Origin: Cristatella mucedo
Taxonomy: Eukaryota; Bryozoa; Phylactolaemata; Cristatellidae
DNA: 64,000 nucleotides
Direction of reading: 5' to 3'
NCBI GenBank assembly: GCA_009760855.2
Contig: WPIO01000024.1
Span: 922,501 to 986,500, forward strand
The position numbers and the translations under genes were made by a program. Shown here piece by piece: positions 6,406-39,900 of this stretch (position 1 is its first letter; the number at the start of each line of letters is the position of its first letter). The notes under the pieces are model-generated. The model was given only the letters and a program-made list of their open reading frames with translations, was not told the origin of the DNA and searched no databases.

Positions 6406-7960
6406 TCACACAAAGTAGACTCAGAGCATCTGTAAGTGGAATTCACCCTTACGCCACTAATGGCGCATGTTCCTTTACATATACACGCTATCCGAAGAGC
6501 CTTCATTGCTTCATTGCTTATCTTTCTTTTCTTTTTCCTCTTCCCACATTACGATTTATTCTACTGCGATGGCTACAGCAGCGAACCCTTTTCTGTCGTT
6601 AATGACGTCACAGCATCCACGGGAATTCCCTCGTCTTACTCTGCCTCCCGTATTTGAGCAGGTGGTAAAGGTGGTGCTAAGTTGGCCATCAATTCTCAAT
6701 GCATTGGCAGTGCAAACGCCTTTACTAGAACGAAATTCGGCATCGTTCAGGAGAAAGTTCGACGATTTGAACGCAGCTTAATTAGGCATTGTAGTGGGTT
6801 CCGGAATTTCTAATCTGGCCCTGTCTAATTTCTATGCATTCTCGTTGTTTCAAAAATTGCACCATTCACGGAAGACACCGCAACACAAGTCGTTCACGCC
6901 GTTCAACGTCTGGCTTTGAAGAATTTGTTATTAACTAATAGAATGAAGTAGCAACATCAGTACGGCATCCTTCTCCAGCAGGAACTATTGGGGCAACCTC
7001 CGGATTCCCGGAATAGGAATACCTACGCCGCAGTTTCCGACGGGCAGACGGCGTTCGACAAAGCAAAGCTTCGCAGCACGCTCCGTCGAGCGTGCTGCGA
7101 GCGATTCAGTCTGCCAGATACGCCCCGTTCTCCTGAGATCTGCTTGCCGAACGCACCGGAAGCGACGACGAGCGACCATAAAGCGGTTTATTTGTAGCCC
7201 CCGGCGAGCAGCGACAGCGCTGTCCCGCATTTCTTTGTCTAGCTCTCCATCGCCATTTTACTAAGGAGCGTCTGAGCCGCCGTCGAAATGCTCCAACACC
7301 CTGACGTCTACACCGACTCCATCTGCGCCGCTGTCATTGTCTAGTCTCGCCTTCAGCGCACACTCGCTAGATAGAGGATGTGCATAGCTGCGTTACAAGC
7401 GTGCGGCGTCCACGTCTGGACAGGACTCGGCCACAAGCGCTTGCATCGATGCATCGTCTGACGCCGACGCGCGACGATTACTAGTGACGACCGGATCTTG
7501 TAGCGCGGCTTGAGAGACTTATAGGTGGAGCACTCAGTACACGCAGGGATTTCGACAGTAGCAGGACCAGCAGCGACGTACAATGCTCACACCTTAGCAT
7601 TACGATTCCGTATCCTCAATGCACAGAAGTCTATTTTTGACAGCGCCGGAGCATTACGGGCACTAAGCAGCGGCGACATGACCTGCACCAACGGCTCCGC
7701 GGCCTAGCGCTCAGAGAAACTAAAGGAAATGTCCACTGGGCCCTTTCGATGAAATACCCACTCGGCCCACTGAGGAAACGAACTGGCTGCCCCCTCTCAT
7801 AACGCAGGCTTTTATGCGGCATCGGCCATAGATTATCGCAGTCATTTCTTAGCCATTACAATTCACGAGCCGCGAATAACTATCATTAGTCACAATCTGG
7901 CTGATTTATTTCGTGGCCGTTTTAACTGCTTCTCGTCACTGGCAGTGTGTTCATCTTGAA
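6406..7960. other. No gene recognised
   Basis: No recognisable domain in any frame. About 7000-7700 is relatively CpG-rich and could be regulatory DNA, but no motif supports a specific call. Confidence 0.4.
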
Positions 7961-7961
7961 T

Positions 7962-8748
7962 AGTGCTTCATTCAGAAGACTGCCTCTACAGCTAGCCATC
8001 ACATCCGATCCCTATCCAAGACTGGGAGCTGTCTCCCACAGTGGCTTGTAAACAATTTAACTTAGTTCTATCTCGGCTTGATTATTGTAATTCCCTTTTG
8101 GCTGGGCTGCCAAAGAAAGCTAGTATATATTATTACAGATATGCCACTACAGCGGAAAATGAATATGGCTGCAATGCTAGTCTTCAAGTCCCGGCGGTTT
8201 GAGCACGTGTCTCCTTTGCTAAAAGAGCTAGGATGGTTGCCGGTTGAGCAAAGGATGCAGAGCAAAGTTCTTACGCTGACCCACAAGGCCCGCCACGGCT
8301 TGGCTCCTTCGTACCTTGCTGAACTGCTGCATCAGTTTCAGCCTGTTCGAGCCCTCAGGTTCTGTGTGGACAATAAATTAGCTGTTCCATTCCTCCGCTT
8401 AAAGACAGTTGGCGACAGAAGCTTTAGCTCTGCAGGTCCTAGACTGTGGAACTCGCTTCCACAATTCTTACGCAACGACAACTACTCTTCTACTGCCGAC
8501 TATGGCACATCCTTTTTAGTGGTCTTGAGCTGCTACTTCCATGCTACTCACTACCTCAACTGCTCTCCTGACTCTGCTATGCTTCCCACTTTCTCTTTGT
8601 TGCGTGAGACGAAGTCTGTTGGCTACCGAATGCGTAGCGAAAGCCGCTTAGGCTGTGAGTGCGCTATACAAAACTCTCCTGCGTAGCACCCACATGGTCT
8701 TTATGACTTTGTGGAGTTACAGACGGAGATACATTACATTACATTTGA
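7962..8748 (+). mobile_element. LINE-B fragment, RT C-terminus and 3' tail
   Basis: Encodes WLPVEQRMQSKVLTLTHKA, LAPSYLAELLHQFQPVRALR and PRLWNSLPQFLRNDNYS, the typical C-terminus of CR1/L2-like ORF2. It ends in a 3' UTR and an (ACATT)n tail. The RT is truncated; the sequence upstream of 7962 is unrelated. Confidence 0.85.
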
Positions 8749-9123
8749 AAACTTCAGCTTTCGCGCAGGATAGACGCGCGTTTTTGCATCTTCGCTTATT
8801 TGGGAACCGGGTCGTTCTGGCGCGATGCTCAGGTAATTCATTTATTAAGTGCGAGTCTGCGAATATCTGCCTAAGCGCAGCTTTTCCAATTGTTTCTTTC
8901 AGACGACGCTTGAAACCTTAGAATAGTGCTCAGGTAGGGGGTCGGTGGAAACGAATGGGCCGCCCACATCCGCCGCGGATGTTGAGACTCTAAACACTTC
9001 CGTCGCGTAATTCTCTACAGCCATCCCATTTTCATCCTTAGTAGAGCTATTCAGCGTGGTCCTGCTATTCAGCGTGGTCCTGGATTGCAGCACGACGGTA
9101 GAGGTTTCTAACCGGACACCGAA

Positions 9124-10274
9124 ATGCTGTTTTTTGGTGCTCTTCAGAGCATGCGTCGTGTGGCCGCGTACAGGGTGACGCTGTCCGAAGCATGTCGTGC
9201 AGGGCAAGGGCGTTGGTACGGCCTGACCCCGGTCAGCTGCATTCGGGCTCGCCGCACCGAAGCTTTACGGGAAAATGCCGTGGGCCCCATGCGGACTTCC
9301 GATTCAGCTTCAGGCGTGCCGAGTCCAGCTGAGACTACGAGTGGAACTGTTAGCAACGCTTCAGATTTAGATATGGTGGCGTCGTCGTACAAGAGCGTAA
9401 CTTTTGAAGGTCAGACTTATCGTACGGCTAGCTTCGGCACGATCAGGCTGGACGGCGATAACGAGGCACTAGAAGTAGCCGAGCTTGCCAAAAGAGGTGG
9501 TAATGCTGAGTCCGGCCAAGCTTCGACAGCCGACAGCGAGACCGCGTCGCTCGGCGAGGCACGAGATGATCGCACAGCGTTAGCCGGCCTGCCTGGAGAT
9601 TTCTTCGGTATAGATGCCTACGTTGAGGCCGCTCGCTCTTCGGCGGCGGCGGCCAAAGCGCCATCAAACGAGCGCTTGCCTACTAGTTACTCGGAAGCCG
9701 CGAACCAGCGGAATCAAGACAAAATTAATGTGCGACACGATGTGCTCGGTAGAAGCAAGGGGAGTTCGTACATAGAAGAGCAGTATTTTCCTGAGCAGCC
9801 TTTAGCCTCGCACGCAAGTTCGCCGCCGTCGGCAGATATTCGTCAGCATTCTGTTGCCGCAGGGCTTCAGCCGAAAGGCACTGATGGACCGGCTGCTTCA
9901 TTTATCGAACAGCAATACTTTGGTGCGGAACCTTTCGAACGTGGACGAACTGATGGGGCTCTGTCGACGTCTTATGCTGGGGCATGCGATGCCAGCGGTT
10001 CAGGCACAGTTCAGCCGCTCGTCAGCAGGGACGGAGCAGAGCAGCTAAATTTCAGCAGTGCTGCTGCATCGGCTTCAGAGCAACGTGCTGCTGCATTCGA
10101 TGTGGTTCTACCAGGCGAATTCGCCAGTCCAACCGCCACCGAAAACCAAGAGAATATTATCGATGGCCTTTACTTTAAAGTCGCTACTACTACTGGCTTG
10201 CCACTTATACCTGAAGCTGTCGACTCGGAGGTCGCTGCTGCTCCAGCTCATTTCGGGTCTGATTTAAAGACTAG
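9124..10274 (+). CDS. RPUSD4: RPUSD4-like exon 1 (presequence and low-complexity N-terminal extension)
   Basis: Encodes residues 1-384 and ends in phase 2 at donor GTTAGT. It opens with a basic, presequence-like stretch. An Ala/Ser/Glu-rich region follows, with three degenerate aromatic motifs: YIEEQYF (residues 216-222), FIEQQYF (260-266) and IIDGLYF (345-351). LPG-D/E-F occurs twice. I recognise no catalytic domain here. The open frame of almost 1.2 kb is far longer than expected by chance, and every later exon continues its frame. Confidence 0.8.
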
Positions 10275-12810
10275 GTTAGTAACAGTGGGCTGTTTAAGGC
10301 AAGCTCGTTAAGCTCAATTTTGTTTTACTCTGTACGTATGCATTGCATCCCTCTAATAGCTATAGTTTGGAAACGAGTTGCTGCCTCCTTTGGCCTTGGC
10401 CTCCTTGATCTTATCAGTAGCACTGATCATCATCCCAAATCTCATGCAATGCACAATCTGGTATGATAGTTTGCTGTTGCTGTTTTTTTACCGGTTATAA
10501 TAATAATAATAATAATATTGCACTTGATAAAGCGCCCTCAGAGAACTGAATCTCTTTCTAGGCGCTTTACATTTGCTGCAAAGTGATATGCAATAGAATA
10601 GTAAGTAAAATCGTGCTTGAAAAACAAACAAAATGAATAATGTGGTTAGGGGTGACATGCACAGGGTCAGCATGCAAATGTGGTTAGTGGCAGCATGCAC
10701 AGTGTCAGCACGCATAAGCACATCAAGGACGAATCACAGGGACCCACTAAATGCTGTCCTAAATAGGTGTGTTTAAGTTTCTTTTAAATGTCCTTAACAA
10801 GTACCACGTAGTGCCGCTTGAATTTTGTATTTTCCAAAAGCATTAGCATTTGTGAGTGGATGAATGTCTTTGCAATAGCTTTAGTCTGTGGGGGTTCTTT
10901 AATGTTGTGTGTTTTTTCGTGCCAGGAAAATGCAGGTGGATAATAGCCAATTGCCAATCCGGCGTCAGTTGAGGGAGATGCAGCAAATAGGTATCGAGGC
11001 TGCTGCAGGGTCGAGATCACCTAGGACCGGCACAGGACGCGTGAAGCCTTCAGTGGCCACAGATGATGCTGTGAAACAGCCGTCAGCCAAGACTGATCGT
11101 TTTGTGACCAGCAGCAGCCTTATCGAAAGGCTGCGCCGTCTCTCCGCAGCCAGCCCCGAGGAGTATGGAAGCTATGCACCACGAGAGCATCGGCAGCCAG
11201 ACGATGGCATTGCTCCGCAACCTGAGCAAGAATTTTCAAGCAATGGGTGGGTCAGCCGGCTGTAATATTTAATGTCTCTTGACTTCATGCTACTTTCGGG
11301 TAGCCCTGTCTAATCTTCTTTTTACCATGGGCTTATTGCTTGTAGCATGCAGCGGATGGATTCACGCAAAAAACAACGTGGGAAGGCTGTGTTTGACCTT
11401 GGCGATTTCAACCAAAGAAATGATGCCACAGTTGCTTCACTAGACCACTCTCGGTCTGGGTATGTGCTTCACCCTCCTGCTGTCAACCCAGATGCATTTT
11501 CGGAAATGAATCGATCATGCTCTGCATTGTCAGGCCCATTTTGTTGTGTGATCATGCCCTTCACATGCTTATCGTTTCGCATACGTCTAGTTTGCATCAT
11601 ATTCCACTTGAATTGTCACCTCGGGGTAACCAGCAAGGGATGACTGCTTTGAGGCGACCACGAGCGATCGATCGACACCCGTCTGACGGGCAACGTGCTG
11701 CCCTCGGATTCTCAGGCAAAATGGATGCAGCCGCTTCATCTCGTCCAACCGGCAGCACTGTGGACTCGTCTTCATTCGCCTCTGATGGAAGGGCCAACTT
11801 GGCACGTGATGGCAGCGTTACAGGCAGGCTGCGAAGGCTGGCACTGGGAAGCTATGCTGACCAGAGTAAGCCTCAGATGACTTCAGCTAATGATGATCTT
11901 GGCACTCACGCTGACATTCAGGGCAATCACTTAGGGTAGGTGGATGGCTTACCCTGTCTTGCCTCCCCCACTTGCTGAGCTTTGCTTTTCTCGTTCCTGC
12001 TTTCTAATCGTTGGCTGTACATCCAGGCAGTCGGCACAGCCTGAGAGGTTGGTTGCAACAGCCGGTAGGCCTGCCACATCGAAATTGACTGCCGAGTTGA
12101 GCAGACAGTCAGTGGGCAAGAAAGCGGTGCAGCAGGCCTATGCCTCTGTGTCTGATCAAAGTGTGGTGTCGGACCTCGAGCAGCAAGAAGATGCTTTCGA
12201 CAGCACCCAACAAGAGATCGTCACCAGGGACAACACGGAGGTGGCAGACAATCCTGGCTTGCCGAGAATCAAGGCTCAGATCATAGATTGGCAGAATGAA
12301 ACAATCGACAAGGTGGTTCATCACCTGAAGACATCCGTGCTATTCCAGAATGGTAGGCTTGCCGGTGTGCGATCCTTCCCATTACTTTGCTAGTACTCTT
12401 GGTCTCACCGAAACTTACCTACCTGCCATATTTAGCTGGAGAACTGGGTCTCGGCCTGTACATGTAGGTGTGTGCATGTGATATTCTTTGAATAAATACT
12501 GTCAAAAGACTTTCTTTGTGAAGTCGAAAGCTTAATAAATTATATAACCGATGCTATTCCTTGTATCAATGAGTAAATTATCTATTTCACGTGTAAGCTT
12601 AAGCACTGCTTTTGCAAAGATTAAATATGAAGTATGCATTAATAAAAAATCACAAACCAATAGCAAGCCTCGTTGGTTGTTTTCGGATTCGTGTAAACTT
12701 AATTCCGATAAAATAGAAGCGTTTTGCAGCTATGGGCTTGTGCCGACTGAATCAGGAGGCCGAGGCAAGTGCTTATTCATTTCCGGAATGGTTGCTGTTT
12801 TGGAAATAGG

Positions 12811-12907
<97 letters not shown>

Positions 12908-15900
12908 CCTGTGCGTGTTGCTGTTTAGCACGGTGCAGTGCCGTCATGTTTGCGATGAACTATACAAAAACTGCTACCAGCAATGCCGTTCGATTCTGCA
13001 TAATTCTCTTTGGCTGTCATTCCCTAACGAACCATACTTCATTTGAGATTAGATATCCTGGAACAAAATTAGATGCCTAGCCCGAGAAGATGGCATATTG
13101 GTTGATCCATGGGTTGCTTGCCTTTTTAAATGCATAGCTGTTTGCTCTTGCTTGGTTGTTAGCTGAACATTTTCCAGTTCTGCCACTATACATTTGCTTG
13201 TGTGGTGGTTACAGACTCACAGTCAGAGGACTTGACAATCAGATGACATCCTGTTGTGTTAATGCTCTTCGATGGTGCTGAAAATAGCATTTAGATAGTG
13301 TCAGCTGTGTATCGGCTGGGCTAGAAGGATTTTGCGTTTCTCACTAACGATGGAACCCTCACCCCTCTTCTATGAAGTGTGTGTCAAAGTGTATCGACAG
13401 CTTTTTTGGCCCAATAGAAAGATGTATGTGGGCATTATGGCTGATATTGCTGTGGTGGCTATTCTAGAGTTGTTTTTATGCTTGCCACGACACAAAGATT
13501 CTGTTGTTAATAAATAGATCTTTCTATTAAAGTCTACTCTGGTTTTTATATTTTTTTCAATAGCAGTAGAACGCACCATTTGTTGTGACAAGGATATTTC
13601 TTGTGAACCTAGCGACTTTCCTGTTTTTGTAGATGACCTGCTGGCAGTCAACAAGCCCTATGGTATAGCGAGTCACGGTAAGGATTGCCTTGTCAGCATT
13701 ATGCCTAAGCTTCTGCTGCTGCCACCTATGCTGCTGCTGGCTGTATCGCCCTTGCCGGCTGCTAGCACTGCCACAGTCGCCCACCGGTTATTGATTCAAT
13801 TCAGCTGACACTTCTGTATGTGAGCTGACTTTGTAACTGCAGTGCTTTTAAGGTTCTCGAGTCTTTTTGTGCCCAAGTGCTGGTAATAGCCGTAGCTTCG
13901 TACCTATAGTCATCGTTTTTCGTGACAAAGTCGCATTGGTTGTGGCCTGTAATGTGAGTGCTTGATTTATGCATTAGCATGGTCCTTACCATGTGAGAGG
14001 CTGAGCAAGATGAATAATTTCTATTGCATTCTACCGTGCTGCTGTGTTTTTGCTGCATGCATAGAATCTCGATCCACGTTTTGCATCAGCACAGTTTTGG
14101 CTCTTCAAGAGCTGGCCCATACTTTCGTGATGTCCCGACTAAACTTCTTTAACTTGCTTCTTGCATGCCTGGTTTTAGTACAGAACTCGGCACTTGGGCA
14201 TGTATGTTGTAAACGCCATAACTGTCACACTGCACCCCTTCCTTCACACCTATTTGCAGCTGCTGCCAATCAGGTAGCATATCGGCTTCAAGCTTATGTC
14301 GATTACCTTTAGTTACCTTTATTCTCTTGCTCCGGCCTACCGATTTGAAAAATTTTCACATCAGGCCTCCTGTCGCCCACTCACTTTTCTGACTCAAAAT
14401 TTATTGGCTGTGCCCCTAACTTCAAATCCCTTGGATACCGCGTCTTCAGCTATTATGAGCCTGAAGTCTGGGACTTGCTTCCGACTGACATTGCGTCTTC
14501 TCCTGATTGGATGACTTAGAATTAGAAGCTAAAAACCTACTGGATCCTTCTCAGCATTTACTCTGCGTAATTGAGTCTCTTGCAGTGAGTTGTACCGCAC
14601 ATGGATTGAGATTCGGCTCGCTCAGGGTGCTAAGCAAAGGACAGTAATAATAATATTAGTATTATGATTAGCGAAAGAAGCCAGCCATACCTAGAAGTTC
14701 CCCTCATGCATAGCCAGTATGCAATGGCCTCCTGTTCTATGGTTTTTCCTTTTTCTTGAGCTCAGGTGGACCTGGTATCCACCATTCCATTGCTGCTTAC
14801 CTCCCACAATTGGCATCAGAGCTGAAGCATCAAGGTGATCTCCATCTCGCCCATAGGCTGGATAAGGATACGACAGGAGTTCTTCTGCTGGCAAAGTAAG
14901 CCACAAAAATATTCGTTTGTCTAATCAGCACTAACACTTCCTCATAAGTCCATCCGACCTGAGTGATTGTTATACCTGTCTCTCACAGTGTGTACCTAGT
15001 GCAATGACATTGCATGTTCGAGCCAAGCATGTTGGCCACGTGGTCTCTGTGCCTATACGATGTATCTCCCTACAAAAGGCAATCTGCTTTTCTAGGCAGA
15101 CGGGAATGAATATTTGTTGAAACTTGGGCGGTTCTCTTCCACTAATGCATCACCATCAGTACTGTAACACCACTGCAGTTGCATTAAGTCAGCTTGCGTG
15201 TCTGCTGCTTACTGCTATGCACTGTGCAGTGGGCACCCGGGTTAGTATTCAAAACGGTGTTCATTGTTTATGAAGTGCTGTTTATGAAAGGACTATTTTT
15301 GCATGCCGACTGCCCTTTCATCTCGTGCTATGTCTGTTCCGGACTCGTCGGACTGCCATGCTTGCTGGTCTTGCATTCTCGTCCGGATCAATCTGTACAA
15401 GAACCAAAATATGTATAGCAAGGTCCGGCTGCTCGATCCATATAGCTATTGTTTTGCATGCCAAATGGCTGGATCGTCGGTAGCTGCGATTACTGTGGCT
15501 TCCACATCTGACACTCAAATAAACCGAGCAGCAGTTGAGCGATCATTGCTTGGGATCATTCACATTGTGTGCTGGCAGTTGCCCTCTTTTAGGCGATTAC
15601 TTGATTAAGTCTTACTCAGCTTTGACTGGTCACGAGCTTGTACAGTGCTCCTAGGGAAGGCCTAATTGAACCAGCAGGTTCCTATTGCTTCTGCTACTGC
15701 TTGAAGCTTTGCTGTGACCTACAGCTGCCAGCTACTTGAGTGTCCAATCCAGGCACGGCAGCTGTTTGCCTGCATTCAAAGGTTAGGGAATGAGGTTAAG
15801 TTCTCAAGCTGGCTGCTAAGTGGGAGTTGAACATTTTTCTACACTCCCTTTCATCATGCTTGAGCTAATGTCAGGTCACTGATGCCCTGTTCTGTGCATC

Positions 15901-18900
15901 TGTTTCCCATCATCTCTAGTTTAGTAAATTGCCTGCCCACCACTTGGCTGTAAGTAAGCATCTCGTATATGTTGCCTTTACATGATTTTCCCAAAAAGTT
16001 TTGCAAAAACCTTTGGTCCACTTGGTCAAACCTTTAGGAGTGCATGCATGCACGGTTCACGGCACCGAGGGTAGCTGTAGTAGCAGTGGAGGACATCGCT
16101 CTGCATGTCTTGTTATTCACGTGGATGACTGAAATCACCGCATGCATGGAATCGGCCGGAAGCAGATGATCCAGAATGATCGGTGGTATCACGTGACCAC
16201 ATCATAGACAGTTCTAGACATTTCTACCGTCAGCTATCAATCCTTGTGCTTTCTGTCATTTCATCTCAACCTTTGGTAAATGACAAGCATACTGCTGGTT
16301 GGTGGCACCCATTTTTTATCGCAATGCTAATACAGCCGCCCCATATGTCTGACCAGAAACCACATCCGTATTCTTATGCAGAAAAATTAATATCCTAAAT
16401 GCTCTTGCATTGTATCACTCACTTGTAAAGTCGTGCGATCTTTAATGCACCTACAATTCCCTTTAGCAACCAAGACGATTGTAAAGAGGCACAGTCGAGC
16501 TATCGCAGTGTTAACCCTCGTCCTTACTCTTTTAGTGTTCATGGATCAGTCACGACGTTTTCTCTTTAGTCTCTAGCCGTGTACCTTCATCCTATGCAAA
16601 CACCCGCTCGTCTGGTCTTGCATAGTGTAGTGCTTTAATCTGCACCGTCATCGTTGCGTGTGCATGTGACTGTATTGCTATCGTTCGGCGTTACCTCACT
16701 GTGGCATGGCAGCTGCTGGCTGAATATGACAACCGCATAGGAGTTTGTACCCACCATCAGCAGTATCGTGGCACGTGCTGCATTTAGCTTAAAATCAACT
16801 CTTTCACACTTTACAGGACCCAGTTGGCATCAGTTGCTTTGCAGCGAATGTTTCAGCAGCGACAAGTTGTAAAGACATACTGGGCACTCACCAGGGGAGT
16901 ACCTGAGCCAAAGGAAGGCATCATAGACATACCCCTTGCCGAAGGCACCTGTGATGGACAGTACAGGGTATGTAAGCGTGTAAGCCACGTGATGGAATCG
17001 AGTCACCTGGGAATCAGGGTGCACCTGACACATGTAATATGGTTGAGTTACGATGGTCTGAGGGCGCTTTATCAAGTGCATTATTATTATTATTATTATT
17101 ATGGTGTTTGCCATGCTTTCTCTTGGCTTCTTGTGTGAATGCATGTGCTGCTGCCATATGCAGTGGAGGAGCCATTCTGGCTACGATCAAGGCTAAGGAA
17201 ATTGTGTCTTTTGTTCCACAAGTGATCGGCAGATAGGCACAGATTGAAAGAACAATGGTCTCCACAGTCGTCGCCATGGTGGCCATTTCTTACTCGACAG
17301 AAAATAAAAAATGATAATGTATTTATATTGCATTTAGAGAACTTAATCTCTTTCAAATGACTCTCTCTACACGTGCTGTAAAAGAAGCATGTCAATATCG
17401 TTGATGATTACATGCTCAGCATCAGCATGCATTAGCACACGATGATCAATTCACAAGGATACAGCAAACGCTGTGAGAAGCAAGTGCATTTTGAACATCT
17501 CTTCCAGTGCAGTCACGATCGGTGGACGTCGTGACATCAGTCGGGAGTGAGGTTAAGGCTTTGGGAGCATACGAATGAAAGGCGCGGTCTCCAAAGGATT
17601 TGCGTTTGGTTCGAGGCACAGCTACACGACTTGAGTCAGAAGAGACGTTGGTATGTGACTAGCATGATTAGGAAGTTGTTTTGATAGGTTGCATGGAGCA
17701 AGAGAATGCAGGACCTAAACGTGAGTGATAAAACCTTGAAGTCAGTCAGCTGATTTGGATTTGGAGTCACTGCTTCTGGATTTGGAGTCAGTGTTTTTTT
17801 TGAGAATGTGGTAACTATGATGCATACAACAGACTCGTCGCGCTCCCGAGTTGTGCACCAATTCCAAATGCCTTGTTGCACTGGAAAACCTGCAATGGTG
17901 ACTTACAGAGGCTGAGAAGGGACGTCACAAAGGCATTGACCAACTTGGATGGAGTACCGATGTTTAAGTAGGCCCGAATTGCATAAGTGAAAGTAATAAT
18001 AATAGTAATACATTTCAATAAGCGCCCTCAGAGAACTCTATCTCTTTCTAGGCACTTTACAATTGCTGCAAAGGAAGCACGATCAACTGTGAGTGTCATC
18101 CGAATAGAAACGAAACCCTAGATTGTGCTTGGCGATTATATGGCAAGAACAAGAGTATAATTGTAAGAAAAAAAAAAGGTTGACCAAGCCCCCAGCCTTG
18201 TGTTACAAAATTCTTTTGAGGCTTCTCGGATGACAGTTGCATACAAAAGTGTGACGTCATTGAGGTAATTCGAGCGCCTTCGAACGACACTGGCGTTTCG
18301 TGATAAGTTGTGATATGCTGAATGAACGTTCGGCCTTGGCGATCGACACTGGCAGTGTCAGAATAATTCGTACCAATTTATGCAGTAGGTCAGAGCCGGT
18401 CTTCGCTGGACCGGACTCTGCCAGCATGACTGCAAGAGCAGGAAGTGTCCCAACGGTCTTCGGTGCCGAGTCCGAATCTCTATCTCTGTTGAAGTTGGTA
18501 GGCAGCTGTCTCAGGAGGATCGTTGCTATCGTCAGCAATAGAGCCGGTGGTGCGCTGTCGTTGTGCGACCGGTGCTACTTGTTCTCTATGGAGTCACACT
18601 GACCGGGACATCCCAAAGTCGTTGGCCCTTCCGACACTGTCACCGGGTGTTAGCAAGCTGATGGGTGATGGAACGAGGTGGCATCTGGCAGTCCGACTAG
18701 ACTTGTAACCGTGCAAGCAGCTTCCCCCACCCACCCACCCATCCCCACCCCACCCCGTGCTCTGCTGGGAGACTGAAATGCAAGACTGGTGTGGTTAAAA
18801 TACACCCAGCCATAATTGGGCACCGAAGGCGGCAGCCTGTTGTGAGCCGGTTAGCAGCAGGTTAGGAGGTGGGCAAGCGTCTCACCCAGCGGCAAGCGGT

Positions 18901-21900
18901 CCTCCTGGTTTAAGTTAAAATAACCGTCGAAATCGCTGTATTGCGGACCCTATTGTGTGCCTACAATCGCTAGCGATTTTTCAGACCCTCAAGGCAATCC
19001 TCTACAGCGAAAGATGCAAGCTGCTGGTAGAGTAGCCATAGCAACAGAGCCGAGCAGTCAAAGTTAGACCTAGCTTCTTTTTAGGTGCATGTTCGGTCTC
19101 TTGCCTCTCCCAAAGGGTTGTCCCTTGCATACTTGAGCTACATGCCGAAAACTTGTGCAGTCGTTATTCAATCAGACCCAACTTTTGGTGGCCATTCTGA
19201 GGTTTATCTATTTGCTAGGAATTCTGTCTATATCTTCATCTATTTGCTAGGAAACCGTCGGCTGATAGTATTCTTGCACTTGCCTACCACCCTAGCATCC
19301 TGGTTAGTGTAGCTTTTTTGTCGGCTTACTCTCCAGTTCGTATCATTTGTCAGTGTGGTCGCTTTTAGCTCCAGTTTATTCGGTCCCAGCTGATCTTCCT
19401 GATTACATTTCCCCCTTACCGTTGCTTCAGGCACCCTAGTTAAAACCAACTGTAGCCAAATGCCGCAATCGTGGCTATCAGTGAGAACTGCTTCTTTGCA
19501 GACTGGGGGGCAGCTGCCTTCTGCCCCCTTTTTTGTTTTGCAGCTGATTATGTGTGTGAATATGTTCAGCCGAGCATGCAAGCATGCATGCGTATCTTGA
19601 GTAAAGGGTGTTCACAGAAAAGCAAGGTGCCAGCGCATGGCAAGCGGACTTGACTCGCAGACTTTTACACTGCCTCTTATGTGTGTATGTGTCTCCTCCT
19701 CTCTCCCTCCCTCCCTCTCTATCTGTCTTCATCCCTCCATATCTATTCTATGCTGAGAGCCTGTTCCATACTGTCTTCTCTCCTCACCTCCCCATCTCTT
19801 TGTCTCTCTTCTCTTGCTATATATTCATTCGTGTCTTATGTGGCATTGTAGATGAGGCTGGCACCAAACAGCTCGGGCCACATCGAAGCCGTGACAAGGT
19901 ATAAAGTCTTATCTCATCACGGATCATGTGCTCTGGTCGAAGTTGAACCCATCACCGGTAAATTGTTTACCACGTACTGTAGCTCACTTTAGTAGTCACT
20001 TTGTTGTTATGCTGACCTGCCACAGTAGCATGCGGCTTTTTTGAGTTCCATTTAACTAGTTGAATCCAAGTCTTGTCGACCTCGCATAGCTTCGATATAC
20101 ATCGCAATGCATCCCCGGATGTAAGTAACTACAATTCTAGTTTGTTGGACAGTCTTGCAATCACACTCGTGCATCTTCTGCTATTGATAGCGGCTCGCAC
20201 CACGTGATGCCCTCCACATGAGTACTTACATCCTGCCTTCAGCTCCGGGTAGTGTATCTGGGTCCTCGTGTCCCCGTGGCTTACTCAGATGCTGTGGAAA
20301 AAATTGGAAAACAGTTAGAGTTAGCCAACTGTTGGACATAGGAAGTGCAAATAGGGGTGAGACCTAGTCCACGCTTTCCCTCGACAAACCTTGTGCCGAA
20401 GTCGTCTCTGGTATTGATGATCCTGCACCACCCATTCCAAAGACAAGCTTAGCGGGTAACTGTATCAATAATGCGAGTCTTCGGGTCAGATTTCATCGTC
20501 ACTGGAAGTATACTTACCTTTATAAGAAAGCTGTAATACGACTATTCATGGCCTCCCTCCGCCACACCCGGAAAGCCTTTAGTTACCTGTCGTCCACTGA
20601 GGTATGAACTTGGCACAGGGGAGTGTCACCTGTGCTTATCCTGCTGCCAAATTTTCCTTAAGCTTGCTTACCGGCAAGTAATACCAAAAATAATAATATG
20701 TGTATTGCCCAAAGAGGGCTAAATCTCTTTCTAGATACTTCCCATGGGCCGTAAAGCATGCATTGGCAATTGGATAGTAATAGTGTGTACAATTGCAGCA
20801 AGCCTTAGCATGAAAGACGACTCACGGGACGGAGAAAATACTGCGAGAAACAGGCTGATTTTTATATATGCTTGAAATGACGTCAAGTCTCAGGATGTCG
20901 TGTCATCAGTCAATAGAATTTCTCGGCTTTGGGTTCATAGGAACTGCAGGCATGGTCTCTGAATGGTTTGAGGTTGATTGGAGGCACTGCTAATTGAGCC
21001 AAGTCTGAGAAGTGTGTGGTGTGAGAGGAGGCCTGCAGAGTAAATATTTCTTACACGAGCGCAAAGAGGAAATTTGTGAGGAAAGTTGCAGTAGTTCAGG
21101 CGGGTTTCGCACATGCATAGACTAACTTTGCTGTGATATTCTTGCCTAAGCCTGCTCAAGTACAACAGAAAGTGAATTCAGCTCCTGTCCTATTGGTCGT
21201 GTGTGGAGCTAGCCCATCGAACCGCCCACAGGCTTATGAAAATGCTTTTCAAAGCTTGACTCAACCAAATATGATGCTGTTAATGCAGAATCATTCCTGT
21301 TAATCTTGAAAAAGTTTTTCTGACAAGTTTCTCGATTAGTATGCATTAACTTGCAATTTCCTGGCCATTGTACATGCTCTTGTTCCAAAGCCACCAGCTT
21401 TTGGTGAAATCCGAGAATCACTCTTCGGTTGATTGCTTAATTAAGGATTTTCATCATTCTGTGCACGTGCTGAATGTGTCTTACAGGGGTAAAGCACCAG
21501 ATTCGTGTCCACCTATCATTTGGCTTGGAATCAACAATACTCGGGGATCACAAGTACTCTCACAAGGACAAGATGGCTCCGCAGGTAAGGGTGCATACGC
21601 CTGCCACCCCCAAAGAATGCCACTGCTTTTAGCTATAATAATAATAATAATAATTCACTTGATAAAGCGCCCTCAGAGAACTTAATCTCTCTCTGGGCGC
21701 TTTACATTTGCTGTAAAGTGAAATGCAATGGAATGGTAAGTAAAATCATGCTTGAAAAACAAACGAAATGAATAATATGGTTAGGGGTGACATGCACATG
21801 GTCAGCATGCAAATGTGGTTAGTGGCTTTGTCTGTGCATAAGGTACAATAATGGTAAACTGTAACTGTATCAATAATGCTTTAATACATTTTTATAAACT

Positions 21901-23141
21901 AAGAACACTCAACTTCTACCTGGGCATTTCACATAGTTTAGAAAAGGAAGCTCTTTACTGATTTATAATAATGTACTTGATTTGTTACTATAGCCTGTAT
22001 AAGTATAGCGAGCAAAAGTATGTGAAGAGCAACTCCCGTTGATGGATAGTTAGCATTGTGAAGAGCAGGTGGAATTTATAAACATTTTAAATGTCGTCAA
22101 ATTAAGGGATGCACGGATGTCAGTCGGTGGAATAGGTGCATAGGAACTGAATGAGAGGTCTCCTAAGGAGTTATGGTATGCTAAAGCCCGTGCTAAAAGA
22201 CTCGAGTCAAACCGGAGAGAGGGTAATGCTGAGGAGTCAGTATCTCAATCATGAAGTTGGAGCAGGAGAGTGAAGTGAAAGTGAGTGAGCAGCAGATTCT
22301 TGAAGTCGATGTGCTGCTTGATGCTTAGATAGTTCAGGTTGATAAGAAGTGGTGTAATGTAGCACACACACACACACACACACACGGGGTGTGTGTGCAC
22401 GCACGCACGTGTGGAGAGCCAGCCAAGCAATAAGCACCTGCCGAGTCCACTCTTCCGTCGTCTTACTGGTGCTGCAGAGCTTTTCTAGAGTGCATTTAGT
22501 AGAATAGATCGGGTCTATGCTCACTTCTCCTTTGTCCTTGCTGTCTTGTGCGCTTGAGCCTCAAGTCCTTGGACCAACAGCTTGTCTGCTGGCTCCAGGC
22601 ACCTACAATCGACATGTGTGCCCACCCCACCTCATCCCTTCGTTGAAGTGAGCATGTGCATTTGTTTCGCTGTTAGCTTTGGAAAGCCTGTCGCTTCCGG
22701 TAGACAGTCAATGCTTGCATGAACACGAACCGGGCGTTGTGCTAGGGATGTGCCAAGCCGAGCCCCCCCCTGGCTTGGGGGTTGCCCACTTGCCACCAGT
22801 CATCGCCTGCCACTCAGTGCCCTTTAGTTCATCGCCTCCAATCAATCAACAACTGTCGGCAGCTTGTCTTGAGGCTGATTTGCATGGTGAGCCATGGCAC
22901 CAAGTTTCCGGCTCGTTCTTGGTTTTTTCAGCGGCTGTTCCCTGACCTGCTGCACCTGCTGGGCATCACACAGCCGAAGGTGCGCTATCTGCCCATGCAC
23001 CTGCATGCCCGCTCCGTCGTCCTGCCCGAGTTCGACAATGGTCGAAACCTGTTCATTGTGGCCGCTTTGCCCAAGCATTTCCTGAAGAACATGCGCAGGC
23101 TGAAGGTTGCAAAGCCGCCATCAGCTGATGCAGAGGAGTGA
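9124..23141 (+). CDS. RPUSD4: RPUSD4-like mitochondrial RNA pseudouridine synthase, 11 coding exons
   Basis: Joined exons: 9124-10274, 10926-11246, 11346-11459, 11591-11935, 12027-12352, 13633-13677, 14766-14895, 16817-16967, 19852-19957, 21487-21584, 22932-23141. They give 2997 nt (998 aa) with no internal stop, and every intron is GT-AG. The catalytic part (about residues 753-995) matches RPUSD4 of the RluA family throughout: DDLLAVNKPYG, a GGPG turn, HRLDKDTTG with catalytic Asp800, RQVVKTYWAL, VEPITGVKHQIRVHLSFG, LGDHKYS and a C-terminal LPMHLHAR segment. Known family members isomerise uridine to pseudouridine in mitochondrial 16S rRNA and tRNA. The N-terminus (Arg-rich, few acidic residues) fits a matrix-targeting presequence. 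The start is either Met1 (9124) or Met10 (9151). About 750 residues precede the domain, against about 110 in human; that region is low in complexity and unrecognised. Introns 1, 6 and 8-10 carry LINE debris. The catalytic identity is secure; the long 5' half rests on uninterrupted phase matching. Confidence 0.9.
10497..10795 (-). mobile_element. LINE-A 3' UTR and tail in RPUSD4 intron 1
   Basis: Minus strand: (ATT)n, the conserved tail gcgcctagaaagagattcag, then the TGCATGCTG-repeat 3' UTR. It is truncated at the ORF2 end and very similar to the copy at 60053. Confidence 0.85.
10926..11246 (+). CDS. RPUSD4: RPUSD4-like exon 2 (extension)
   Basis: A symmetric phase 2-2 exon; acceptor cgtgccag, donor GTGGGT. 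Residues 384-491 are basic and Ser-rich, and include LIERLRRL followed by GSYA. A similar RLRRL/GSYA pair recurs in exon 4, so the two exons may be copies of each other. Confidence 0.75.
11346..11459 (+). CDS. RPUSD4: RPUSD4-like exon 3 (extension)
   Basis: A symmetric phase 2-2 exon of 114 nt; acceptor gcttgtag, donor GTATGT. It encodes a basic, hydrophilic segment (RMDSRKKQRGK) followed by an acidic/Asn-rich stretch. No domain is recognised. Confidence 0.7.
11591..11935 (+). CDS. RPUSD4: RPUSD4-like exon 4 (extension)
   Basis: A symmetric phase 2-2 exon. Of the nearby AGs, only the one ending at 11590 keeps the frame open; acceptors at 11633 or 11637 hit early stops. Residues 529-644 include GRLRRL (607-612) and GSYA, mirroring exon 2. 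The donor is GTAGGT. Confidence 0.65.
12027..12352 (+). CDS. RPUSD4: RPUSD4-like exon 5 (extension and pre-domain linker)
   Basis: Enters in phase 2 after atccag and leaves in phase 1 at GTAGGC. Residues 644-753 are acidic and Gln-rich. The last part (RIKAQIIDWQNETIDKVVHHL) is predicted helical, and it occupies the position of the helix that precedes the catalytic domain in human RPUSD4. Confidence 0.8.
12812..12905. repeat. (AT)n microsatellite, about 46 units
   Basis: Pure AT dinucleotide tract in RPUSD4 intron 5. Confidence 0.97.
13633..13677 (+). CDS. RPUSD4: RPUSD4-like exon 6, 45-nt exon with the NKPYG motif
   Basis: A 45-nt exon (phase 1-1) between acceptor ttttgtag and donor GTAAGG. 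It encodes DDLLAVNKPYGIASH, the first conserved motif of RluA-type synthases. It is too short for ordinary ORF finding and was identified by motif and phase. Confidence 0.93.
14090..14660 (+). mobile_element. Decayed LINE-A fragment in RPUSD4 intron 6
   Basis: Encodes traces of HTFVMSRLNFFNLLLA, LVLVQNSALG and KRHNCHTAPL, the ORF2 C-terminal region (compare [15 protein letters not shown] in better copies). The tail is lost or degenerate. Confidence 0.7.
14766..14895 (+). CDS. RPUSD4: RPUSD4-like exon 7 with catalytic HRLDKDTTG
   Basis: Acceptor gagctcag, donor GTAAGC, phase 1 to phase 2. It contains the GGPG turn and HLAHRLDKDTTGVLLLAK. The Asp of RLD (residue 800; codon 14861-14863) is the nucleophile conserved in the family. 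Confidence 0.95.
16817..16967 (+). CDS. RPUSD4: RPUSD4-like exon 8
   Basis: Phase 2 to phase 0; acceptor ctttacag, donor GTATGT. It encodes LQRMFQQRQVVKTYWAL and the following strand with IIDIPL, colinear with human RPUSD4. Confidence 0.93.
17045..17101 (+). mobile_element. LINE-A solo tail in RPUSD4 intron 8
   Basis: Only gtctgagggcgctttatcaa followed by gtgc(ATT)n remains, about 55 bp. Confidence 0.7.
17310..17990 (-). mobile_element. Decayed LINE-A fragment in RPUSD4 intron 8
   Basis: A degenerate tail (agagaacttaatctctttca), 3' UTR and ORF2 C-terminal traces on the minus strand, with many indels. Confidence 0.65.
17995..18160 (-). mobile_element. LINE-A tail joined to an internal RT piece
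   Basis: The minus-strand tail (gcctagaaagagatagagtt) is joined directly to a piece from the YADD region (cctagattgtgcttggcgat on plus), so the intervening ORF2 and 3' UTR are deleted. Confidence 0.65.
18257..18538 (-). pseudogene. hAT-family transposase C-terminal (dimerisation) relic
   Basis: The minus-strand frame reads LVRIILTLPVSIAKAERSFS followed by ISQLITKRQCRSK. This matches the hAT C-terminal dimerisation signature (LLTLPVSTASAERSFS, then LKTYLRS). Only about 90 codons remain, with no recognisable catalytic core, zinc finger or terminal inverted repeats nearby. It sits in RPUSD4 intron 8, antisense to the host gene. Confidence 0.75.
19852..19957 (+). CDS. RPUSD4: RPUSD4-like exon 9
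   Basis: Phase 0 to phase 1; acceptor cattgtag, donor GTAAAT. It encodes MRLAPNSS, then EAVTRYKVLS and ALVEVEPITG, which match the RPUSD4 strand leading into the KHQIRVH motif. Confidence 0.92.
20685..21140 (-). mobile_element. Decayed LINE-A fragment in RPUSD4 intron 9
   Basis: Minus-strand tail-like sequence (aaagagatttagccctcttt) followed by diverged 3' UTR and ORF2 end. Old copy. Confidence 0.55.
21487..21584 (+). CDS. RPUSD4: RPUSD4-like exon 10 (KHQIRVHLSFG)
   Basis: Phase 1 to phase 0; acceptor gtcttacag, donor GTAAGG. It encodes GVKHQIRVHLSFGLES and LGDHKYSHKDKMAPQ, the family's third signature block. Confidence 0.95.
21636..21830 (-). mobile_element. LINE-A 3' UTR and tail in RPUSD4 intron 10
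   Basis: A well-preserved minus-strand (ATT)n tail, conserved tail block and 3' UTR. It is truncated within the TGCATGCTG-repeat 3' UTR. Confidence 0.8.
21873..22362 (-). mobile_element. Decayed LINE-A fragment in RPUSD4 intron 10
   Basis: A diverged tail and ORF2 C-terminal traces on the minus strand (LLINLNYLSIKQHIDFKNLL, compare [16 protein letters not shown]). Confidence 0.6.
22363..22384. repeat. (CA)n microsatellite
   Basis: Eleven CA units, followed by GT-rich sequence. Confidence 0.9.
22932..23141 (+). CDS. RPUSD4: RPUSD4-like exon 11, C-terminus and stop
   Basis: Acceptor gttttttcag, phase 0, ending at TGA 23139-23141. It encodes residues 930-998, including RYLPMHLHARSVVLPEF and the LPKHFLKNMRRL tail seen at the end of RPUSD4 proteins. 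Confidence 0.93.
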   Translation, partial: RLFPDLLHLLGITQPKVRYLPMHLHARSVVLPEFDNGRNLFIVAALPKHFLKNMRRLKVAKPPSADAEE

Positions 23142-33964: not shown

Positions 33965-36900
33965 CTGCAATGACAGCAGGCAGACGTTGAGCACTACTTT
34001 CGTGCATGTATAAATCCAGGATATGTCTAAGCCTCCAAAGCATCTAAGCGTTTTATTGCCTTCGTTTCCGGGTGAATGGAGCTTGAGCAGCCTCTTCAAT
34101 TGGACTTTAACACCACAAATACCATAAACCTCGTGCTAATGCAGACCATACTTATCTCGTAAAATCCATTGTTAATGAGTGGCCCAATACATGACCTTAT
34201 CATGGAGGAAGTAGTTTTTGCCTTTCAGTGATCGCGATTACTGCTTGAAAAAACCGAGTGCAAAAGGAAAACTAGAAAACGTATGAGAACTTGCATACAT
34301 ACATTAGCCAGCGGTGCCTGCCCTGCCCTGCCCTGCCCTGCCCCTCCCCTGCCTCTCCCCTACCCCTGCCCCTCCCCTGCCCCTGCCCCTGCCCTGCCCT
34401 GCCCTGCCCTGCTGGGGTCGCTGGTGCTACCCGGGCCTCCCCCGGTTCAGGAACAGGAACATAAACATATAATACAATCAAATAATCACAGGGCAAATAG
34501 CAATGGTGGATAGAACAGACCGACGGCAGTGAGAGCGAGTAACGGAGTGGAGGCAGAGAAAGGAAGGGAGTAAGACAGCGAGGACGACGCCATTTATTAC
34601 AGTTTAAGTGCTCATGAAAAGGCTAGAATACAAACCCATTACTGCGAGTTGCCATTAGGTGAATTCCAGCCCATCCTGTATGTATGGACGCATGCTTTCT
34701 TATGCAATGACAACTACTCTCCTGCTGCCGACTATGGCTCATCCTTTTCAGCGGTCCTGAGCTGCTACTTCCATGCTACTCACTACCTCAACTGCTCTCC
34801 TGACTCTGCTATGCTTCCCACTTTCTCTTTGTTGCGTGAGAGGAAGTCTGTTGGCTACCGAATGCGTACCGAAAGCCGCTTAGGCTGTGAGTGCGCTATA
34901 CAAAACTCTCCTGCGAAACACCCACATAGTCTTTATGGCTTTGTGGAGTTACAGACGGGGACACATTACGTTAAATTACGTAAGGACAAAAAGGCAGCAT
35001 GCAAATACGCATTAAATACATGAAAACACTCCAATTAAGTGTTTTTTCGTTAAGCTTTTAGAAGCCCCGCGAGTATGTGCCAGTTAAACACCGATGGGAA
35101 TTTGTGCTAAGAATGTCAAAAGTAAGGTGATGGCAGCATCTCAGTAGATGAATTGCAGGCGTCAGCGAAAGGTTCTGAGCCGTCAATCTTACGTTTGATT
35201 CAGCATGATAGATGACAGCTACCTGAGTGTAACTGCGGCGACTTCAGCAATTATAATTACACAGCGACCGGAGGCCCTGTCTGTCGTGGAACAGAACGCC
35301 GACAAATCAGAATAATTTCCCCTCGAGCGCGGGCGCCTCTGGCCGGACCGGCTTACTAGCTCCAGCTTACGGCTCTAGCCAATTGATCTGTCGAGAATAT
35401 CTTCCCTGCGTCATTCAACGCGCGGCTACAAACCCGCCGCCGCTTTACATCGCCACTTTGCGCTTTAAATTGCTCGAGCCGCATCCTGGTATACCGCTAG
35501 AATGAGCGTGCGTTTTTATAATCGCAAATGCTGGTGCCAACTGCAACCGTTACACCAGATGCGCTCGGCGACTGTGGAGCATAACGGCGGCATAAGTTGC
35601 GCGGGTCCCCGCCCCTTTTGCAAGTAGGGGTATCCCCTGCGAGCGAGCGAGCGAGCGAGCGAGCGGTCCGCCACCGCATTCTTGGTGACTCGTGAATGGC
35701 TGAGTATGTAGCTGTGGCCTTTAGCGGTGGATGCAAAGAATATCACTTCCGGCCTGACCAAATTGATAATATTAATCATTTACATAATACCCAAGAGAAC
35801 CAAAGCTCATTTCAGGCCGATAACATGTGCTGAAAAAGATGCGTGCTTTAATTTGGCTAGTATCAATATGCGCCATCCCATCATGTAAAAGTACAAAAAA
35901 AAGCGGATAGAGGAAAGGCCTTGAGGAATAGGTAACGCCGGAGAAAAAGCTTTGAGAGAAGGGTAGGTTTTTAAATCGGCAGACATTGGTAGCCCACGCT
36001 CGCTTAGAGCTATGCTCCACTTCACAGCATGACAGATGGGAGACCCTGATATGCATGATAGGTGTGGTCCGAGCTTGCTAAGACTAAACTTGCTTTCAAT
36101 ACTTTCGATTGCCTCATGTCTGAAGGAAACAAATGCTGCATGCCAATAAAGGCACGGCACCGATAGGAGAATGACGTACTAATTAGCTTAGTCCAGTCCC
36201 AACTGAAGCAAGACGCAGTAAGTCATTTACGCCGTGGCATCGATGATGTCGCATCAAAACCCTCCGCAAGCCTCATAGTAGTCGACATCACTTCACGAGC
36301 TGGTTACCCTGCCCCACCCTAAGAAGACCAAAGTTGATGACAAGCTGCGTCATTCAACTGTTAAATAATGTCATTACACTTATATTACAACCAGTAATCA
36401 CCAGGATATCATAGTGTCGACCATGCTTCTAACTCGTGGCCAAAGATTTGCCATCGTGCAGGCCTGGAAACATCCATAGCAACATGATCCCATAGTCATT
36501 CAAACCACGTCAGTCATTGTCGAGTCACACAGCTGCACACTCACAACTCACCACCTGACGCACTCACTACCTCATACAAAGTGCGCAGGACGAGGTAGTA
36601 AATAGGAATGACATCATTTGCCAGCAATGTGATGTCTATCACCTGATGCGATTCTTGTAAATTCCAGCTGCATCGCCGAAATGCAGGCTGCCTTACCAAG
36701 CTGGTAAAATAGTATCCGCGTTCGCCATTGCTCAGATAGGACGGATTAGCAAAGCGTGCCACGTAATTTATGTTGGACTGAAGTTGCGGCACGCCAGCTC
36801 TAATGACGACGTAAATAAACGCCGGGAGGAAGTCGTCTGCGCTGGATGGTCTCTCCTCGTGTACGCCCATTACCAGTCGCGATTTGTGTAGCGCCTCGAA

Positions 36901-39900
36901 GACGCGACAGCTGCAGCTCACTATGCTCTCCAGCTTGTCGATGGGCGATTTGCAGCTGCACAGCTGCCAGAGATCTGCAAGAGAAGCACCTCTCACTTGC
37001 AGCAAGCTATTTACGTCACAGCCGGCATTGTAAACAGCATCAGATGCAGCCATAGGTCACACTCTGGAGGCGCGACCTTGACAATGGCACCGGATCAGCT
37101 GCTAGGCTAAGATCAGTAGCTCACCTGCTGGTCAGTTAATATTTATGCTGCACAGCAGAGCTACTTACCCGTGGCAGGCGGTCGGCTTGTGAGTTGTTCA
37201 ACAGCAGCATGATCATTACTGCATGAGCACCCTAAATGGCTGCAGTTTGCTTTAAATGACCAGGCTCGGCCTAAGAATCTCCCTTCAACAAAATCAGTCT
37301 GTGTAATTCACGAGGTGTCTCAGAGGTCAACTGGGCCACTAAGGTTAATTAATCTAACCAATTGACATGCTTCCCTTATAGTTTATGTAAAGTGCCCGGA
37401 AAGAGCTTTAGATCTCCAATGTCGCTACGGGAACGTTCTATTACTGTTATTATTGGTATTGTAATTATTAATTGTTCTAAGATACCAAGCCTGCGTTCAT
37501 AACTGCATGTCAGGTGTCTAATATTGTGTTTACAGGACCACTGACAAGTATCGTTACACTAGCTCGCTTCGCTCTCAGCAGTCTCATGTGATATTCACTC
37601 AGTTAGCTGAAGACTAACATGGTCCTCCAAGCGCGCATGGAAAGTCGATGATGGGTTTGACGATAGACAAAAAACAATTTTTTAATGTAAAAGACCCAAA
37701 TCCCATGAAAAGCACAAAAAATAGTGCTAGAGAATAGTAGAAAGTACGCCGCTCATGCATTAAAAGCTTTTTCTACGGAAATTGTTTGACGATAATTTAA
37801 TACGATAACTATATGAGGGACGCTGTCGGCTACAATTGTGTCTCACCCAACGAACTAGTTGGCTAGTCTTCGCGGCATTGCGAAGTTATAGATATATCAT
37901 TCTGTGCATCAAAAATGCGAAAGGCTAATATCAGCGCTTAATACCATACGCACATAGAGACACGCTGGCGAACCATTCCTTGTCCAAATTCATTTACCTG
38001 CATACGCGGCCTCGAGCGACTCACGAACGCTTGCATCGCCTTCTACGATGCATGCATCCAGGTGATGTGCAGTTATCCAACGCAGCCTTCGGGTCCTAAA
38101 GCAGCACCACTACTCATTAATTATTACAAAGGGGAGGCATGGTGGCTGCATTAAAATGGTGCGACAGTACTTTGCCTCACTGCAGGAAATGAAGAAAACC
38201 ATAAGCTATTTGAGAGTGCAGAACACTCTGCAGCCTGGCGACAATACTAGGTTAGCAGATGATGCAATTCACTGACCTATAGTTACAGTTGTCAGCTGTT
38301 ATATAAAAAAACAAAAGCTAATTTAACAGCCTCTTTTTGTATAGCGACAGAAGAGCCTTTACGGCTATCACCACCACTTGCAGTGGCGATAAAGAATCAC
38401 CTACCGAAGAATTCGAACCCACGACCTCGGGGCCAAGGTCGTGAAAGGCAACCGCCTTACCTAGTGAGCCATTACGGCTCTGTTATATGTGACAAAAAAC
38501 CAGTTTACCGAGGAGGTTGCTGTCGGAATATAGGAATTACAGTACATGCTTTAGGCACGCAATCACATATCAACCAGTTGGGGCTGCGATGCAGCACGCC
38601 GAAATAGCTTCAGCTTCTGATAACATGAGTGCTTGCGATACTGACGTTCATTCTTTGACATCTAAAAGCCTCCCAAAGCTTCAATATGACAAGACATAAC
38701 TTTTGCTCATTGGAATTCTAAACTAATGAAACATTAACTATTGCCAACTAGCGAATTTTATTATCAAACCATCACAGAGCACAGATGTATCACCATAATC
38801 CGGATCAGCCCAGCCAATCACGGTCATACAACGACACAGCGAGAGCGGCCGATTTCCGCGAGATGGTACTTTTCTCTCACAAAACCGAGTTGCTGATGCG
38901 TCCATTTGCCGACTGGGCGTTGAGTAGCTGGTTCGGCGAGTCGTCAAAAAATAGGGCCAACGTGCGCAACTGAAGCATGCGAACACTGACTCGCTCGTCG
39001 TCTGGCTGAATGCACTCACTCGAGCTGTCTCTCTAGTCCCAGCCTGGGTACGATTGAGAAGCCATGACTGCTTATGGCTGCGCATCACGCAGCGACCTTG
39101 AAACCTTGAAACCATCTCCTCTCGCCGATTCACCGAGTTCAAGCACAGCGACCATTTTACACCAGACACGGCGCAGCCGCAGTAAAAAGATATCTGGCCC
39201 AGCTGCATCCGGCCCTTCATGCAGCGCTCCGAAGGCCTGCATTCAACTACCGGGGCCTCGACAGCTCTCTGTCGCGTTATTGTTCAACCAGTTTTCAGGA
39301 TGTAAGCAAGGTCGGCGAAGTTCCCGCAGACGCGATGCACGACAGATACGAGCATTTTACGGTCAGAACTCCTCCGGTGGCCCTCCGCCCCCTGGCAACC
39401 AAGGTTCGCACAACGGAAATGGAAAGAGAAACTGACAGTGCGGTTAGTCGCCTACAGTTGGCGCTTCGGTGCCCTTCTAGCGGTCGGAGTGATTTCTCCT
39501 CAGCCTACAAAGGCACTGCTGTGTGCACGAGAGGACTCATATATAAAGAGCAGCGTGCCAATTATAAGCTCCGGTAAGCTCCAGGAATCTCGAGAGCACG
39601 AGCATCAGCGAGGCAGCGATCGTGCACACTCCTACTAGACTGGCTGGACTCGCCGATCGCTGCAGAGCTGGCGAGCAACATATTACATGCAGCGATAACT
39701 CATCAGCTGCACCGAAAAGAGTAAATCATAATAATAATAATAATTTCTTATAGCCCCCTCAGAGAACTGAATCTCTCACTAGGCACTTTACAGATGCTGC
39801 ATACAAAGCATTACCAAATGTTTGGTGGTAACAACCGCAAGCAGCAGTCATAGTTTAAGCAGGTACGTGCATACGAAGGACGAATCACGAAGACCCAACA

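Follow-up and report, generated by a model that had tools for sequence, protein, structure and literature searches.

Introduction

Human RPUSD4 has a length of 377 residues, and enzymes of the RPUSD4 type are recognised by their action on 16S mt-rRNA and mt-tRNA-Phe. Mammalian RPUSD4 is described as a component of the mitochondrial RNA granule that binds 16S mt-rRNA and is required for the large subunit (PMC5377769), and it is credited with pseudouridine 1397 of 16S (PMC7600485). Here, an RPUSD4-type gene with a long N-terminal extension was analysed in a 64,000-nucleotide stretch of the genome of the bryozoan Cristatella mucedo (the window).

Results

Gene Model

Eleven exons on the + strand (9124-23141) were joined to a stop-free predicted protein of 998 residues, which runs from ATG 9124 to TGA 23139-23141. 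The features of the locus are as follows.

8501..10250, no strand assigned: CpG-rich stretch with an observed/expected (o/e) ratio of 0.96-1.31, extending over exon 1 and the flank 5' of it; putative promoter
9124..10274, + strand: exon 1, with start codon, basic acid-poor N-terminus and residues 1-383; open frame, splice donor
10926..11246, + strand: exon 2 of the extension, symmetric (phase 2-2); open frame, AG/GT edges
11346..11459, + strand: exon 3 of the extension, symmetric (phase 2-2); open frame, AG/GT edges, uncertain junction with exon 4
11591..11935, + strand: exon 4 of the extension, symmetric (phase 2-2); open frame, AG/GT edges
11936..12026, + strand: intron 4, 91 nt, pyrimidine fraction 0.67, with TAG 11937 and ATG 11944
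12027..12352, + strand: exon 5, end of the extension and first nine residues (744-752) of the RPUSD4 match
12353..13632, + strand: intron 5, with read-through stop 12391 and AATAAA/ATTAAA hexamers; candidate early transcript end
13633..13677, + strand: exon 6, NKPYG motif (residue 759)
14766..14895, + strand: exon 7, catalytic motif HRLDKDTTG (residue 797)
16817..16967, + strand: exon 8, catalytic domain
19852..19957, + strand: exon 9, catalytic domain
21487..21584, + strand: exon 10, GVKHQIRVH motif (residue 897)
22932..23141, + strand: exon 11, C-terminus and stop TGA

GT-AG edges were found at all ten introns, introns 1-4 were of phase 2 throughout, and extension exons 1-5 were joined in frame to exons 6-11. 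Thus, the proposal of a sequence-only reading that five upstream exons with compatible phases are spliced in frame before the synthase was confirmed in the model. Introns 1-4 (10275-12026) measured 651, 99, 131 and 91 nt, and introns 5-10 measured 1088-2884 nt. Since introns 1-4 are all of phase 2, exons 2-4 are symmetric, and each could be skipped without a change of frame. The start codon is preceded by an in-frame stop at 9109, 15 bases upstream, and four short upstream ATG frames (8703-8991) are all out of frame with it. The edges of exons 2-4 are the least certain part of the model, especially the junction between exons 3 and 4, at which a reading-frame scan showed intron 3 to be open in frame.

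Several other frames were noted in the window. A 206-residue frame just upstream of exon 1 (8066-8683, + strand) has a reverse-transcriptase-like look and is without a Pfam match. On the - strand, an open frame at 36544-37056 with a VPS9 domain (E 1.1e-21) is probably one exon of an adjacent gene, and 51538-52485 holds a reverse-transcriptase fragment (RVT_1, E 2.5e-11).

Catalytic Domain

In a PDB sequence search, residues 744-991 matched human RPUSD4 (PDB 5uba) with E 5.7e-65 and 223.8 bits, at 46% identity over 267 columns, in agreement with the earlier assignment of the catalytic domain. Among the 13 solved-structure matches, from which an RPUSD3 chain was absent, 5uba was the best by 142 bits, followed by RluC with 81.3 bits; RPUSD1 scored 40.1 bits. 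The RluA-type pseudouridine synthase domain PF00849 was found at residues 754-907 (E 4.9e-32), and TIGR00005 matched with E 9.7e-46, all seven NCBIfam matches lying below their own cut-offs. The RluA-type motifs NKPYG, HRLDKDTTG and GVKHQIRVH were intact, and HRLDKDTTG aligned with HRLDKETTG of 5uba; the aspartate of the HRLD motif has the catalytic role. An S4 domain was not matched in Pfam at E up to 10, either with the whole protein or with four pieces of the extension, and the RluC/RluD type with its N-terminal S4 domain was rejected for this gene.

The extension had been put at about 750 residues. A long region was indeed present, and its length was corrected from 752 to about 735-743 residues, since the last nine residues of exon 5 lie inside the 5uba match and the TIGR00005 match begins about 11 residues earlier.

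Only one RPUSD4-type gene was seen in the genome, which has its RPUSD1-like gene at a separate locus. The latter is represented by an exon (locus L049, C33:28300-38200) with RPUSD1 as its top PDB match (E 3.4e-26); a 975-residue frame nearby resembles a retroelement polyprotein by eye. These two synthase types, the introns and the retroelements point to an animal genome. Two RluA-type frames without interruption, 305 and 341 residues long (L003 and L005), lie among other long bacterial-looking frames on contig C3 of the assembly (1,507,939 bases), which probably derives from a bacterium associated with the host.

Coding Potential of the Extension

The extension frame contained 0 stops in 735 codons, as compared to 25, 42, 29, 23 and 26 stops in the other five frames. 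For the 383-codon open frame of exon 1, chance probabilities of 1.4e-7 to 3.0e-5 were obtained with four Markov models of order 1 or 2 of the same sequence. The period-3 signal was strong for exon 1 (13.0) and exon 5 (5.5), each value being reached by 0 of 1000 shuffles, marginal for exon 4 (2.3; 36 of 1000) and not significant for exon 2 (1.3; 236 of 1000) and exon 3 (0.95; 449 of 1000). The joined extension reached 17.1 (0 of 1000 shuffles). No prominent period-3 signal was observed in the seven of ten introns tested, three short ones having been left out (54-272 of 300 shuffles).

A codon score was trained on 264 catalytic codons, a set that includes the end of exon 5. With this score, the proposed frame ranked first among the three sense frames in all five extension exons; over six frames, it ranked first in only three of the five, with an antisense frame winning in exons 1 and 5. 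In absolute terms, the score was negative for exons 1, 2 and 4. Introns 2-4 were pyrimidine-rich (0.62, 0.61 and 0.67), and these fractions were reached by at most 0.06% of equal-length exon windows. Taken together, the period-3, codon score and intron pyrimidine results make exons 1 and 5 solid and exons 2-4 likely. It is thus highly probable that the extension encodes protein.

Composition, Predicted Structure and Homologues of the Extension

The extension has a disorder-like composition, with 99 Ala, 84 Ser, 60 Arg and 59 Gly among 735 residues, of which 81 are basic and 92 acidic. Its description as low in complexity was upheld in a mild form only, with segment entropies of 3.66-3.90 bits versus 4.07 bits for the catalytic part. 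The first 50 residues carry a net charge of +6 with three acidic residues, and +6 is reached by 3% of extension windows. No marked amphipathic helix was found at the N-terminus (helical hydrophobic moment 0.16-0.28 in 10 windows). The case for a mitochondrial import signal is, therefore, an argument from composition.

When exon 1 was modelled with AlphaFold2 without an alignment, the mean pLDDT was 46, and 291 of the 383 residues fell below 50. Low pLDDT from a single sequence is weak evidence of disorder; with this model and the composition, the extension is probably mostly disordered. In the same run, residues 20-50 or so scored 79-87 and residues 71-100 scored 69-82. In a rerun of the 93-residue piece from residue 16 to 108, the overall value was 66, the first 30 or so residues again reached 79-85, and residues 71-100 only about 61-68. 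Given the high values for residues 20-50, a small folded piece is possible.

No Pfam, NCBIfam or PDB (solved-structure) match to the extension was obtained in sequence and profile searches, and nothing was found by Foldseek with the predicted extension models at E <= 0.001. A search of the 572-Mb assembly, in which 15 candidates were scored, showed a single copy of the extension, and the two matches to it outside the window had E values of 2.2 and 5.6. Exon duplication was considered because exons 2 and 4 share RLRRL...GSYA; it was rejected as not significant, as the score was reached by 5 of 300 shuffles with 21 pairs tested. A DNA repeat comparison yielded one pair of 27 nt at 70%, between exons 1 and 5. 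The extension looks like a lineage-specific addition rather than a second fused gene.

In exon 1, the motif [FYI]I[DE]xxYF occurs three times in frame (aa 216, 260 and 345), and even one copy was found in only 3 of 20,000 shuffles of the sequence, the motif having been chosen after inspection. Across the genome, a looser pattern gave 489 matches versus 485 for the reversed control, and a tighter pattern gave 103 versus 49. Among 100 listed of these 103 matches, 13 were one identical repeated sequence and two belonged to the RPUSD4-type gene, which still leaves the tighter pattern in excess of its control. The loci inspected comprised 20 regions with 21 of the 103 matches and 20 shorter loci, one match (C23) being common to both sets. 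Two motifs in one open frame were found in 0 of these 40 loci, and a motif pair on C398 was divided between two short frames. Reading of regions L030 and L035 (minus strand) by eye revealed no recognisable mitochondrial gene, and a profile of the three copies gave three weak PDB matches, to RecU, with a best E value of 0.14. On these results, [FYI]I[DE]xxYF was rejected as a shared motif.

These data bear on the idea that the extension holds a conserved working domain, e.g., a binding platform for a 16S rRNA pseudouridylation module. The repeated pLDDT values near 80 close to the N-terminus and the three in-frame motifs would fit such a domain, but neither the family searches nor Foldseek returned a significant match, and the motif was picked post hoc and did not recur as a pair in one open frame in the 40 loci inspected. 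A conserved working domain is, accordingly, considered quite improbable.

Intron 5 and a Possible Early Transcript End

Among 61 stop-free candidate donors between 11900 and 13630, the end of exon 5 gave the best RPUSD4-residue score (14; next 4). The RPUSD4 match begins within exon 5, which places position 12352 in the enzyme itself. The spliced protein contains no Met from residue 625 to 822, and the open frame entering exon 6 from upstream has none either; a start just before 13633 would thus need an unseen spliced exon. The sequence-only reading had also allowed for the fusion of the synthase with a gene that once stood apart upstream of it. A fully separate gene is disfavoured by the sequence evidence, i.e., the lack of a family match in the searches, the single copy seen and the rank of the exon 5 donor.

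Intron 5 is AT-rich (GC 0.38) and contains a 93-base TA repeat at 12813-12905. AATAAA or ATTAAA hexamers occur in it at 12491, 12534, 12620, 12641, 13509 and 13526, i.e., six as compared to a first-order mean of 1.7. At least six were reached in 5 of 1000 simulations, a number that fell to 3 of 1000 when the TA repeat was left out. The density was 4.7 per kb in intron 5, 0-0.5 in the other nine introns (counts of 0, 0, 0, 0, 0, 1, 1, 0 and 0) and 0.76 over 23142-64000. Four of the six hexamers lie 139-289 nt past exon 5. This excess of polyadenylation-like hexamers suggests that some transcripts may end in intron 5; read-through to the in-frame stop at 12391 would then give a product of 765 residues without the enzyme.

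Exons 1-5 might, therefore, form a truncated isoform or a separate upstream gene with its poly(A) site in intron 5, and the synthase would then be started independently. This would also be in line with the shorter introns before intron 5 than from intron 5 onwards. It is at odds with the RPUSD4 match starting in exon 5, with the Met-free frame into exon 6 and with CpG o/e ratios of 0.37-0.57 in windows 13001 to 14000, and we regard it as rather unlikely. A truncated intron-5 isoform could occur alongside the long form.

The CpG o/e ratio was 0.37-0.80 over 11501-14750, except for one AT-rich window (12501, 1.32), with a window median of 0.81. Together with the CpG-rich stretch at exon 1, this pattern is the expectation for a single unit whose start lies close to exon 1, although stretches rich in CpG are common in the window. 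One of these, at 6751-7750 (o/e 1.21-1.41, GC up to 0.59), lies upstream of the repeat-like frame that precedes exon 1.

Intron 4 and a Possible Short Form of Human Length

If intron 4 is retained, the upstream frame ends at TAG 11937, and ATG 11944 opens an enzyme of 382 residues, which is near the length of human RPUSD4. This ATG is preceded by a stop at 11932 in the same frame. The locus could, thus, have two products, the long form and a 382-residue form made through retention of intron 4 or transcription starting near exon 4, and the long Met-free segment of the spliced protein (between residues 625 and 822) would agree with this. However, the 91-nt intron 4 has an AG acceptor and a pyrimidine fraction that exceeds all 1807 equal-length exon windows, one ATG in some 30 open codons could well arise by chance, ATG 11944 has a T at position -3, and the local CpG o/e ratio is 0.48-0.56. 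Two such products appear unlikely. The long form is compatible with both the hexamers of intron 5 and the ATG of intron 4.

Discussion

The best explanation, to which we give somewhat better than even confidence, is that the gene makes a single protein of about 998 residues, in which an ordinary mitochondrial RPUSD4 follows a long import and tether region that is probably disordered. In this protein, the first 30-50 residues would act as a mitochondrial import signal, and the next 700 or so, as a mostly disordered linker or tether, would be taken into the matrix. There, by analogy with mammalian RPUSD4, the enzyme would pseudouridylate 16S mt-rRNA. Relaxed growth, in this lineage, of sequence under low constraint is the most likely origin of the tether. 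The extension may have an additional role in binding or assembly; at most, the tether would help to keep the enzyme at mitochondrial RNA granules or at the large subunit during its assembly, and the [FY]IExQYF motifs might mediate this.

A more elaborate proposal is that of a matrix-facing scaffold, in which repeated [FY]IExQYF motifs for docking, together with a small N-terminal fold, would gather partners of a 16S rRNA pseudouridylation module. The way in which introns 4 and 5 are processed would then switch the product between the full enzyme, a 765-residue scaffold without the enzyme and a 382-residue enzyme without the scaffold. This proposal is considered very improbable.

If the long form of the favoured single protein is imported, a mitochondrial ribosome-assembly enzyme would have more than doubled in one lineage by means of mostly unstructured sequence, and the gene would offer a natural test of the use of a tether by RPUSD4 at RNA granules. 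If the long form is not the product, the locus would counsel caution in linking distant upstream exons to an enzyme from sequence alone.

Compared to known systems, the predicted protein belongs to the same superfamily as bacterial RluC and RluA (PDB 1xpi and 2i82; 81.3 and 80.7 bits), whereas its extension lacks an S4 or other Pfam domain. With mt-LAF3 (PDB 6yxx chain EC), a trypanosome protein that presumably functions in mitochondrial ribosome assembly, it shares an RluA-type synthase preceded by further sequence, 157 residues before the matched region in mt-LAF3; the match is far weaker (66.7 bits), and the N-terminal part of mt-LAF3 is shorter. The closest relative is human RPUSD4, with which it shares the catalytic domain (46% identical over 267 columns) and the NKPYG, HRLDK-TTG and LSFGL motifs, but about 743 residues precede the match here, as compared to about 110 in the human enzyme according to the sequence-only reading.
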